The translations under genes were made by a program, and so were the position numbers. From assembly GCA_963691655.1 (NCBI GenBank), contig OY829328.1:87486400-87550399 (forward strand): a stretch of DNA of 64,000 bases, written 5' to 3'. Below the pieces are notes generated by a model. It did no database searches. It saw only the letters and a list, made by a program, of their open reading frames with translations, and was not told where the DNA came from. This document shows, in pieces, positions 33,702-52,487 of the stretch. The DNA comes from Toxonevra muliebris. Taxonomy: Eukaryota; Arthropoda; Insecta; Diptera; Pallopteridae. Position 1 is the stretch's first letter; every line of letters starts with the position of its first letter.

Positions 33702-34030
33702 CGACCTCGATAGTCTAGCGAGTAGCGCACTAGACTTTCAACCGAGAGTTTGCTGGTTCGATTGGTCAGGTGGGTAATTCTTATATAACCTTCTTATACT
33801 CGTTATTGATATTAAGTGAATGAGCATTGTAAGAAAGTGTACAAGTGCACAAGTTGCACTTGCGCACCTTTTTACAGGTAATGAATTAAAAAAACAACAA
33901 GTGATAATAAATTGCTACAACGCCGTTCGGCACCGGCACCAATCATATGGTATCACAATGGACCGTTCTGGCCTAAGAGTTTGAATTTTCATCGAGTTTT
34001 TGGTCTACCACTTAATCTAATCTAACCTAG
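33702..34030 (+). mobile_element. tRNA-derived SINE, copy A
   Basis: The head resembles a tRNA gene: CGACCTCGATAGTCTAGCGA (A-box region), then ACTAGACTTTCAACCGAGAG (anticodon-arm-like) and GGTTCGATT (B box). A shared body follows, containing GCCGTTCGGCACCGGC and ATATGGTATCACAATGGACC. The end is TAATCTAATCTAACCTAGG. The same order is found in copies B (38154-38462) and C (52221-52487). Pol III transcription would be expected from the boxes. The 3' end in this copy is degenerate, and no certain target duplication is visible. Confidence 0.8.
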
Positions 34031-34927
34031 GAAACCCAAGAGCGAAAAACAGATTCGGATTTAAGCTTAAGAGTGATATTGCATTCATACTCGTAATTTC
34101 CGAGAATAATTTAATTTACTTTCGTTTTGATATTATTTTTTTATATTTTCGTTAGAGAATTTTGCTCTCATTTCTTAGATCCTGAAGTCAAGGCTGCTGT
34201 TTATTGAATTCATAGATTCGTGAGAGGACATTATACTAATGACACTGATGGAATCGAAATTAATAAAGGACAGATAGCGTATATTCCACAGATTGATTTT
34301 AAATAGCAACATATTTTGAAATCGATTATAAATTTGAATATGTTTAAAAGTATTTTTGCAGATAACTTCAACAAACTTTGGTTAGCAAAATAAATGAGAA
34401 TTTAGGTTTTTTAATGCTTCGAAAAGCTTTTTAATTCAGGAGTAAAGCGAACGGGAAACAGTATCTAGAAAATTTCCTTGGAACGGATAGTGAATATGCA
34501 TAGTAAAATATAAAAAAATGGATGTGTGCAAGGCACGCAAGATATTTGATGCGTAAACAGTTAAGCCAACTGAATGCAATATACATAAGCTCACATATGT
34601 ATAGCCATTTATATGGACTTGATGTATAATCTATATGCTAGGTAAATAATTCAAACTAAACCAATTTTTTTATAAACTTAAAAATTTATTAGATATCATT
34701 ATCTTTTATATATAATAGTTCAATTCAAATAGTAAATTTTTATTCCATATCGCATATATCGCAAATATTTTGCAATTGCTCCAAATCGTAGTTGCATTTT
34801 TTTTCTTTTACTCAATCGGGCACGATATGTTCGCATATACGCAGCTGTAATTGCATCTTTTTTTCCGCGTTTTAAGTTTTTCTTCCTGTCGATTTGAAAT
34901 TTTATTAGATGTGAAAATTTTTCATAA

Positions 34928-35003
34928 CGTCGCCTGAGAATTGATTTGGCGTATAGGTACATGAATTTGTACACGCATACGCCAAATCAATCCTCAGTCG
35001 ACG
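34928..35003. repeat. 76-nt hairpin-forming inverted repeat
   Basis: The left arm, CGTCGCCTGAGAATTGATTT followed by GGCGTAT, pairs with ATACGCC followed by AAATCAATCCTCAGTCGACG, with about two mismatches. A second small inverted repeat, GTACA...TGTAC, sits in the loop. The right end is 21 bp from the piggyBac-type MITE at 35025. It could be a decayed foldback element or an RNA hairpin; I cannot tell which. Confidence 0.7.
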
Positions 35004-35024
35004 ATAAGTGCTTTCCGCATTTAA

Positions 35025-49006: not shown

Positions 49007-49800
49007 AGAATTCTGCTTTTTCTTTTGAATATTAAAAGCAAGAGAGAAATTGATTTCAAACCAAAGCCAAAAACACATAAGAGCAAAAGCGCATAAGAGC
49101 ATAGAAAATTAACAATATTGCGAGAGCGAGTGCATATACAAAAACAATAAAACGGATACGAGTTCAAATTTGTTTGCTCTAAGAGGAGTATTTTGTAATC
49201 GGAGTTTGTCGCTCGCTTAATTTATTTATTTTTTTACTTTGTATGAAACTTAAAAAAGTAACTAGAAATCGTAGTAAGAGGTCCATGTTTTTTAGTATGC
49301 GAAAAAAGTGTATGTTTTTCAATGTAAGCCCTAATTTGAGGGTGGTAACTTCTGATGATAATTTTAATATGCATAGGAATTTACATGCCAATGGAATTGT
49401 TTTTTCTTTTTTTTATAAGAGGTTTCACGATAGCACAACGACAGGGTTGCAATATAAAGTGTGTGCAAGTTTTAGGGGGATATTTTATTGCATTTTTGTG
49501 AAGCACTTTTTTACATTTTATTTGTAGAGAGAAAGAAAGAAATCTAAAAAGTTTGTAGTTAAAAAAATTTGATATCCAGCGACTAAGCTCCGAGAGAAAG
49601 ACTGAATCTCACACAATCTGAAATGAATTATCATATTCAATTTGTTTCATTTTTAGAGCGCAAACGAAGTCACTCTCTTATTCAAGGGCCCTTTTACATT
49701 AATCTTCTTCTATAAAATTTCTAGAAGTCACAAATGAACTGTGGTTTTGATATTAAAATATCAAAAATATGTTAAATGTGAATAAATTTGCAAGACTCAC

Positions 49801-52095
49801 CTGTATACCGTGAGCACCACCTTGCTGACTAATGTGCAATTGTTGTGTTTGCTTCATTTGTAGCGTTGTTGTTGTCGACTGCTGTTGCTGTTGATGTTGT
49901 TGTTGCTGATGTTGTTGTTGTTGCTGCACATTTGGACCAGTTTGTTGCTGTGTATTTGGTCCATTACCACTAGAATTAACGCCAGGACCATTTTGATTTG
50001 TTTGCGTTGTATTGGGACCGACATTGGGGCCACCAACGCCACCAAGACCGCCCACATTGGGACCTCCACCAACACCTTGGGCACCACCGCCCACTTGCGT
50101 GGCACCGGGTCGTTGCTGTTGTTGTTGCTGTGCATTGGCTTGATGTTGCTGCTGTTGCTGTTGGGCTTGTTGCTGTGCTGACATTTGTTGCTGCGCCGAC
50201 ATATTGGGTGGGCCGACATTTGATGGGATGCCACCACCGCCACCGCCATTGTTAAGACCAGTATTTGGTACAACACCAGGACCACCACTGACACCGACGC
50301 CACCACCGCCACGTGAAGGACCCTGCATAAAATTACCACCAGCCGGACTTTGATTTCCGCCATTTGGTCCCATAGGCGAGTTATAGGGCGAGTATTGTTG
50401 TTGCTGCTGTGGATTAGTTTGATGTTGCTGAGATTGCGGTGGTTGTCCCGTGGGTTTGGGGAAGCCCACTGGTCCATTGGGTCCCATTTTCGGACCATTG
50501 GGACCATGCGCTTGCTGTGGTGGGCCATGAGGGTGATGTTGTTGTTGCTGCTGCTGCTGTTGTTGTGGATGTGGTTGATGTTGTTGTTGCGAATGCGCGT
50601 GCGGATGTTGCTGCTGCTGCTGTTGCGTATGTTGCTGCTGTTGATGCATTTGTGCCTGCTGCAGACGTTTGAGATCGAAATCGTTTTGTGAGGAATAAAA
50701 TAATTCTTGTTTGATATCAAGGAAGGATTGATTGACGCTAACCCCCGAACCCGGGCCGCCAGGTCCTTTCTGATGGAATTGTGGTGGCAGGTGTTGTTGT
50801 TGTTGCTGCTGTTGATGGTGCTGCTGATGCTGCTGCTGCGGTCCATTGGGTCCACCACTCATGAAGTCGTTGGCAAAGCCACCGTAATCGTTGTAGCGCC
50901 CACTGGGTCCGACGCCACCGCCCATCATTTGCGCCTGTTGTGGCTGCTGATGCATTGGCGGTCTTGGGAAGCTCATACCACCCATGGCATTTTTATGCTG
51001 ATGCTGCTCCGCCATTTGCTTAAGCGTTTGCGCTGCCAGCGCCATCTCCGACATTGGCCCACCATTCGGGCCATTTTGGAATTGTGAGCGCATTTTATTC
51101 ATTCCCCCACCCTGTGGATCCATATGCGGAGGACCACCCATTGGTCCGCCACCGCCCATGCCACTGCCACTATTCGGACCACCATGTGGTCCGCCGCCAC
51201 CAAATGCCGCACTAAACTGCGCCATTGCATTCTCTGATTTCACATTCAAACTATTAATCAGATCTTGTGCATTCGGTGGCTCCACCTTAATGCCATCCTC
51301 GGTCTTTATATCCAGCAAAGGCTTATCATCGAAGCCATCAAGAAAACCAGGATTAAAGTCCTGCAAATCGCTGATGAGATCTTTAAAGGTATCGTTACCC
51401 TCCGTCGTATCATCGCCCATAAGATCGGGAAAACCGGGAAAGTTACCATTCGGTACGCCATCTTTATCTAGACCCGCCAAATCGGGGAAATCATGATCAG
51501 GCTCACGTTTACATTCGACCAAATTAGCGAGACCGCCAAGCGATGATTTCTGTTGTTGCGTTGTATTCGAGTTATGTCCGCCACCCATTAAATTGCTTCC
51601 TGCACCACCGACACCAACGCCGCCAGCGCCACCTTGTCCACCATTACCGCCGCCCATGTGAGTACCCATGCCACCATTACCGCGACCATTATTTGGTCCT
51701 CCTGCACCACCACCGCCGCCTTGGTGCTGCTGCTGTTGCTGGTCGTGACTGCCACCGCCACCACCGTTCGGCCCGCCACCACTACCACCGCCGCTTGCAC
51801 CACCACTGCCGCCTCCGCCGTTACCCCCCACGCCTGGTTCACTTTTCACCGATGTATTCGTTAGCGCCTTCACTGTAACATTCGTGCTTATCTGTTGCGG
51901 CTGTGAGTTCGCCGCCGATGTTGTAAACTCTAATTGTTGCACAATCTCCACTGAGAATTTCGTTAGATTTTCAGAACCGTTGTTGTTATTATTCTGATTG
52001 TTATTATTATTATTTGGCAGCTTATGTGGTGGTTCGAAGTTGTCCGCACCATTGTCATTGACATCGTCCGCTGGTCGTTTTAAAAACTTTTGTTG
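49801..52095 (-). CDS. mam: Mastermind, large exon with the first acidic cluster (5' part of gene outside window)
   Basis: A 2,295-base exon of exactly 765 codons, phase 0 at both ends. The acceptor is CTCCTGCCGCATATAG before 52095 and the donor is ATACAG|GTGAGT. It starts QQKFLKRPADDVNDNGADNF, followed by ENLTKFSVEIVQQLEFTT and NVTVKALTNTSVKSEPG, as in Drosophila Mastermind. Then come a Gly-rich region (about residues 85-165), LANLVECKREPDHDFPDLAG, the acidic cluster with DLISDLQDFNPGFLDGF and LLDIKTEDGIKVEPPNAQ, and DLINSL (ending at residue 283). A conserved island, SFLDIKQELFYSS (about 453-466), lies between Gln/His and Gly/Pro-rich stretches. The N-terminal helix that binds Notch ankyrin repeats and Su(H) is not encoded here and must lie beyond 64000. 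Confidence 0.95.
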
Positions 52096-52220
52096 CTATA
52101 TGCGGCAGGAGGAGAAAAGAAGAAAAGAAAAATTTTCAATTAGTTTCAATTTAAAATTAAATAATAACCGTTGATGTTAAAAACTTGTACAATTTATAGG
52201 TCTACTTAGTTATTGTTTAA

Positions 52221-52487
52221 CGACATCGAAAGTTTAGTGGGCAGTGCACTAGACTTTCACCCGTCTTCCCGTCTTGGTCTAGTGGTTAATTTTCATAATC
52301 TTTTTATATTCACACTCGATATGAAGTGAATGACAATTATAAGAAAGTGGCCGACAATGAGGAAAGAAAATAAATTGCCGTATTGCCGCCCGAAACCGGC
52401 TTTAAACTGTAGGTCCAACCATGTGGTATCACAATGAGCAGTACAGGCCTAAGTGCGTCTCTAGACAGCCACTCGAGTAGTTTAACT
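52221..52487 (+). mobile_element. tRNA-derived SINE, copy C, lacking the B box
   Basis: It starts CGACATCGAAAGTTTAGTGG and CACTAGACTTTCACCC and then jumps to CGTCTTGGTCTAGTGG. Compared with copy B, the segment that would carry GGGTCGATTCC is missing. The body matches the other copies: TAATTTTCATAAT, CCGAAACCGGC, AACTGTAGGTCC, CATGTGGTATCACAATGAGC, GGCCTAAGTGCGTCTC and AGACAGCCACTC. The 3' A/C-rich end is lost. Confidence 0.85.

Follow-up and report, generated by a model that had tools for sequence, protein, structure and literature searches.

Three related copies of a tRNA-derived short interspersed nuclear element (SINE) lie in the region of the putative gene mam of Toxonevra muliebris, within a 64,000-nucleotide stretch of contig OY829328.1 (the window in what follows). 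As read from the sequence, one of these copies (B) is young and two (A and C) are old, and they were very probably moved by a long interspersed nuclear element (LINE) through a LINE-like tail, with one head and body occurring on the tails of two different LINEs. It is likely, with somewhat less assurance, that this higher fly has two recently active SINE families which join one head and body to two LINE machineries by means of swapped tails, the fold of each resembling that of the matching LINE tail.

The three copies had been picked out in a first-pass annotation of the window, and they were indeed similar to one another beyond chance (E = 9e-19 for A and B, 7e-14 for A and C, and 7e-45 for B and C). 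Speaking of three copies of one family overstated their closeness, however, because A and C are old, about 70% identical to the family consensus, and lack close relatives. Copy B, the only young one of the three, had 39 other genome matches at 93 to 94% (40 scored of 1,492 candidates); the closest other match was 72% for copy A (query positions 1 to 279) and 75% for copy C, with 40 places scored for each. Copies A and C are old relatives of the copy B family. The perfect 11-bp duplication annotated around copy B was found, TTCTCTCTCAG being the reverse complement of the CTGAGAGAGAA given there, and so was its perfect A-box, the boxes being scored against A-box and B-box consensus sequences. 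The annotated unit of about 309 bp agreed in size with the family (about 306 to 312 bp, consensus 312 bp); its limit at 38462 was corrected, as the last three bases (38460 to 38462, AAA) are additional A residues between the head and the 5′ duplication. The start of copy A at 33702 and the limits of copy C at 52221 and 52487 were likewise adjusted (Table 1). The tail, ascribed to two copies, reads AACCCAACCTAACC in copy B, is degenerate in copy A, and is absent from copy C, which has also lost its B-box (best match, 7/11). Copy C is bordered on each side by the 7-bp repeat GTTTAAC, a candidate duplication. In the scanned flanks of copy A, no exact repeat of at least 6 bp and no one-mismatch repeat of at least 10 bp was found; an imperfect 14-mer flanking repeat (11/14) is readable by eye.

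Searches of the genome (491 Mb in 96 contigs) showed that the family is large and recently active. The 15-base tail word GTGGTATCACAATGG had 3,623 exact matches, compared to 0 for a reversed-pattern control, and a 32-base head pattern had 2,219, also with a control of 0. The first 70 matches of the 15-mer on one contig, a nonrandom sample, comprised 44 full-length copies, 1 copy with the 5′ end and without the 3′ end, and 25 copies without the 5′ end. Extrapolation from this one end of one contig gives about 2,280 full-length copies (44/70 × 3,623). Divergence of the 44 full-length copies from the consensus had a median of 1.1%; 22 of them were within about 1%, and 7 exceeded 5%. The subfamily head GCCTAGTGGA was carried by 25 of the 44 (median divergence, 0.65%) and GTCTAGTGGG by 8 (median, 2.0%), the remaining 11 fitting neither, and the consensus, which belongs to the GCCTAGTGGA type, biases these figures toward that subfamily. 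Seven further copies, retrieved as best matches to copy B and thus chosen for their similarity to it, showed at most one mismatch in 300 bases between any two.

The copies also carry the signature of insertion. Target duplications were present at 33 of the 44 full-length copies, compared to 47 of 1,892 swapped pairings of 5′ and 3′ flanks. They ranged from 8 to 19 bp, with 12 bp being the commonest length, and 19 of the 33 start with TA, a dinucleotide whose frequency in the flanks was 9.5%. Copies that are truncated at the 5′ end and intact at the 3′ end occur as well; for instance, one of them has a single 14-base word at both borders, as judged by eye. Duplications of variable length and 5′ truncation are the expected products of LINE target-primed reverse transcription. 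Both copies that run well beyond the unit and a lack of duplications had been named beforehand as findings that would speak against the family; in an alignment of 27 loci, the copies stopped at the unit ends, and the duplications were as given above. The element is short, dispersed, and of high copy number, it has promoter boxes in its head, and many of its copies in the genome are flanked by target duplications; the first reading of it as a tRNA-like SINE stands. When viral contigs were searched for the SINE, the body motif had 0 matches and a 16-mer tail word had 3, which spanned only 16 to 19 SINE bases and were dismissed as chance.

The head is a worn tRNA-like promoter, not a working tRNA. 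In the monomer consensus, its A-box and B-box both scored 11/11. An Rfam search for tRNAs of the host gave 10 matches from 63 scored candidates. Host tRNAs of two isotypes, Glu and Asp, were compared with the head of the monomer and with that of a dimeric sister element described below. Scores for tRNA-Glu were 22.5 and 28.5, respectively, against shuffle maxima of 16.0 and 15.0; those for tRNA-Asp were 21.0 for both, against 13.5 and 12.5 (2,000 shuffles). Of these two isotypes, Glu scored higher than Asp in all three heads compared. Rfam left the first head uncalled in the two dimer loci scanned, and ARAGORN called the first head a tRNA, with an unclear identity, in two of the three dimers scanned.

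A candidate partner for the monomer tail was found among the reverse transcriptase (RT) genes of the genome, of which 150 places were scored from 11,122 candidates. A 1,204-amino-acid (aa) frame was present at 16 of the 150. One copy of this young element, called LINE-1 here, lies in two adjacent pieces and measures about 6.1 kb; the sequence at its borders, CTATGACTGTCTCAA plus the final base of the tail, is repeated over 14 bp or more. Its open frames are one of 545 aa for DUF4780 and the 1,204-aa one, which carries endonuclease, RT, and RNase H domains (PF14529, PF00078, and PF00075). Aligned with another copy, this one was identical at 1,563 of 1,569 columns. This domain set is the mark of I/LOA-type LINEs. 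A public protein search with the RT part listed relatives with the same set (best 120 of 500), and the fly-named one among the matches listed was the reverse transcriptase of Bactrocera tryoni (44%). The 3′ end, TGTGGTATCACAATGAGCC...GCCACTCCAACCTAACCTAACC, lies about 100 bases past the stop codon, and a 33-base word from it had 128 exact genome matches, compared to 0 for the control.

The last ~70 nucleotides of the SINE match this LINE-1 end, AACCT repeats included. The two ends were identical at 59 of 67 letters with 11 gap columns (a hand count on the alignment), and the alignment score was 79, compared to a maximum of 41 among 1,000 shuffles. Both ends are predicted to close with the stem GUGGU/GCCAC and to form two inner arms of differing sequence. 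When the SINE end was sought in four other pieces downstream of RT matches (L136 to L139), only L138 had it, and L138 is LINE-1; the other three pieces may stop short of the true ends and are weak negatives. At 30 RT loci (L039 to L068), no match to the SINE end longer than 14 letters was found in 1,500-base flanks, which may miss the ends. As a separate observation, the genome has several sets of RT matches with equal scores and long open frames, which suggests several recently active retroelement families.

A second tail became apparent at places that have the head pattern without the tail word nearby. Twenty such places were picked, half of them because they carry the head variant TCTAGTGGA; of these 10, 9 held a dimeric element and 1 a monomer variant, and the other 10 places were monomer-type or broken off. 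By eye, the monomer variant (L115) combines the TCTAGTGGA head that occurs in dimers with a monomer-type tail variant. In the dimer, the head and body, 91% identical to those of the monomer over 246 bp, are followed by a second tRNA-like unit and then by a tail ending in TAA repeats. The A-box and B-box both scored 11/11 in the first unit, and 11/11 and 9/11, respectively, in the second. The second unit scored 33.1 bits in both dimers scanned, compared to the RF00005 cutoff of 29; it reached 24.0 with tRNA-Glu (shuffle maximum, 19.0) and 14.0 with tRNA-Asp, not above the shuffle maximum of 15.0. Dimers were also mobile recently: duplications flanked 8 of the 9, compared to 1 of 72 in the control, the copies were 1.4 to 4.4% from their own consensus, and the last 74 bases were matched at 100% in all 40 places scored (of 1,148 candidates).

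The dimer tail resembles a different LINE, called LINE-2 here, of which a decayed 3′ piece lies in the window itself. It was 92.6% identical (50/54) to window positions 57236 to 57289, the alignment continuing into TAA repeats common to both, and the dimer end scored 92 against this piece, compared to a maximum of 23 among 300 shuffles. The peptide encoded at 56669 to 56878 matched 149 other scored places at 70 to 83% identity (150 scored of 7,807 candidates), and 20 of the 149 had a 1,224-aa open frame. Against one such LINE-2 copy (L140), the dimer end scored 57, with a maximum of 28 among 500 shuffles. The 3′ end of L140 and the LINE-2 piece of the window both hold the block GGCACAAAAGATCTTTTAGGTCGCAGTGCCTG, which the dimer holds nearly so, and L140 has TAA repeats as well. 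For the dimer end and the L140 end, the predicted folds contain the same two hairpins, the second of which has an A-U pair in the SINE and a C-G pair in the LINE. The C-terminal parts of LINE-1 and LINE-2 were 28% identical over 166 columns (E = 1e-15). Because the monomer ends like LINE-1 and the dimer like LINE-2, one tRNA-like head and body appears to be placed on two LINE tails.

This suggests how the elements may have spread. SINE RNA would probably be transcribed by RNA polymerase III (Pol III) from the boxes of the head, and its 3′ end would mimic the 3′ untranslated region (UTR) of intact LINE-1 or of a close sister. The LINE endonuclease and RT could then copy the RNA into nicked targets, leaving the 8- to 19-bp duplications. 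As to their history, one head and body most likely obtained 3′ tails from two LINEs. Some observations, however, weigh against this account. First, the monomer head was identical to tRNA-Asp at only 46 of 67 aligned letters and to tRNA-Glu at 49 of 63, and its 75 nucleotides folded no better than shuffles (z, −0.11). ARAGORN found no tRNA in the window or in two monomer loci scanned, and Rfam found none around copy B or in two monomer loci scanned. The annotated tRNA-like head is thus borne out by its alignment to host tRNAs, in a diverged form that neither program called in monomers. Second, the sampling of loci demanded an intact 15-mer, which favors young copies, and 11 of the 44 full-length copies had no duplication under the criterion used. 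Third, the SINE end differs from the LINE-1 end, and so a sister of LINE-1 may be the actual partner; the fold z-scores of these ends against shuffles were modest (−2.4 and −1.2). Finally, the z-scores of the dimer and LINE-2 folds were −1.3 to −1.8, a single compensatory pair is thin evidence, and the best fold of the LINE-2 piece in the window is without the second hairpin.

The direction of tail transfer could also be the reverse. The SINEs may have been the source of the LINE 3′ ends, or a third element may have supplied both, in which case the shared tail would reflect common descent and leave the mover undecided. In keeping with this, the tail motif common to the SINE and LINE-1 also occurs in older repeats (L011, L038, and L083), where it is followed by CACTTAAA instead of AACCT repeats; L011 and L038 were 72.5% identical over 306 columns, and L083 was grouped with them by eye. 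Such an origin is nevertheless improbable. In both LINEs, most of the short 3′ UTR past the stop codon consists of the shared part, and the presence of two LINE tails on one SINE body is most simply explained if the SINE body was the receiver.

The position of the copies in mam raises a further question. Against the mastermind-like TAD1 model, the open frame taken as mam scored 23.8 bits, slightly under the cutoff of 24.2, and the assignment, made already in the first-pass annotation, is supported, not proved. Copies A and B sit between this frame and the next long minus-strand frames at 11502 to 14598, which, to judge by their composition, are probably mam also. Copy C lies 126 bp upstream of the frame. 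A crude motif scan of the window for an N-terminal mam exon or domain found nothing convincing, and because of this "intron" is likely at most for copy C; the claim that all three copies sit in mam introns is to that extent weakened. Three copies within one gene, one of them so close to a coding frame, might be thought to mark domesticated regulatory elements. This is very unlikely, since A and C are decayed and without close relatives and the family has thousands of word matches genome-wide, so that long genes will often hold some copies. Ordinary neutral insertion appears to account for the copies in mam. An origin of the repeats as tRNA pseudogenes or as fragments of DNA transposons, rather than as retroposons, can practically be discounted: the head does resemble a tRNA, but the copies have in common a long non-tRNA body and a LINE-like tail, their variable-length duplications stand directly at the element ends, and 5′ truncation occurs alongside an intact 3′ end. 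A tRNA-derived SINE moved by LINEs thus remains the reading we prefer.

Table 1. Positions of the SINE copies and associated features in the window
Feature	Position	Strand	Remarks
SINE copy A	33700..34030	+	Old; antisense to mam; 69.0% identical to consensus (303 columns)
SINE copy B	38154..38459	-	Young; sense to mam; 92.9% identical to consensus (310 columns)
Copy B 5′ target duplication, 11 bp, TTCTCTCTCAG	38463..38473	-	Window sequence
Copy B Pol III A-box, TAGTCCAGTGG	38438..38448	-	11/11
Copy B Pol III B-box, GGGTCGATTCC	38395..38405	-	10/11
Copy B 3′ part, AACCT-type repeats at end	38154..38221	-	Consensus of the stretch common to the LINE-1 3′ UTR
Copy B 3′ target duplication, 11 bp, TTCTCTCTCAG	38143..38153	-	Window sequence
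Putative mam open frame, stop to stop	49753..52095	-	Mastermind-like TAD1 model
SINE copy C	52222..52479	+	Old; antisense to mam; damaged head; without AACCT tail; 71.3% identical to consensus (296 columns)
LINE-2, decayed 3′ piece (RNase H-type frames, 3′ UTR, TAA repeats)	56669..57315 (56669, nominal start)	+	Nucleotide and peptide matches

Elsewhere in the window, Pfam had no match for the three decayed LINE frames, which are therefore named from their nucleotide and peptide matches. A 191-aa open frame at 55642 to 56217 (+), with no Pfam match, resembles the C-terminal part of a Jockey-type RT. An RRP8-like methyltransferase gene (PF05148, 249 bits) lies at 2672 to 3919 (+). Its nearest named relatives among the best 120 of 475 matches were tephritid RRP8 proteins (Anastrepha, 54%; Ceratitis and Bactrocera, 53%), followed by those of house flies, blow flies, and Drosophila.

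If the proposed history is true, the two SINEs are in effect a paired experiment of nature on the strictness with which LINEs recognize RNA 3′ ends. Large, recently active, and with two LINEs as candidate partners, the family would lend itself to finding out which features of an RNA tail are read by a LINE; its near-identical copies could double as insertion markers. A known mode of jumping is visible here with unusual clarity, in flies with few such elements reported, and the family bears on whether higher flies lack SINEs or these have been missed. For Drosophila, SINEs are reported as not found, and for Phormia as nearly absent. According to passages of PMC5084420, they are numerous in other dipterans, and lineage-specific ones may escape homology searches; therefore, part of their rarity in higher flies may be underdetection. 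In a paper on Calliphora transposable elements (PMC3630058), LOA elements are listed, and its SINE/LOA passages describe no SINE family. No description of the present element was found in the open-access literature, a scope outside which Repbase, Dfam, and SINEBase lie.

SINEs that share a LINE tail and dimeric SINEs are known kinds of element, and this family, judged from the open-access literature, appears to be a new member. First, a LINE tail on a SINE is explained as access to the LINE machinery, the standard explanation in the passages of PMC3747384 on such pairs. In the stringent SINE/LINE pairs described there (Ohshima 2013, PMC3747384), the 3′ end and terminal repeat unit are common to the SINE and its partner LINE, as they are here; beside this shared end, the present family has a tRNA-like head, a body, and target duplications. 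The partners in this higher fly are two RNase H-bearing LINEs, whereas CR1 and RTE predominate among the 58 SINEs covered in those passages. The I element ends in TAA repeats according to the same source, as LINE-2 does, and the likeness is that of the TAA end only. Second, Twin, a dimeric-tRNA SINE of Culex pipiens (cited in PMC8010984), is likewise dipteran and has two tRNA-like units. Unlike Twin, as far as its description there goes, the dimer found here has a SINE body between the units and coexists with a monomeric sister that carries another tail. Finally, HaSE1 and HaSE2 of Helicoverpa armigera are, by their description in PMC3272025, two SINEs of one insect genome that have a tRNA-related 5′ part and a central domain in common, the same arrangement as here, in a lepidopteran host instead of a fly.

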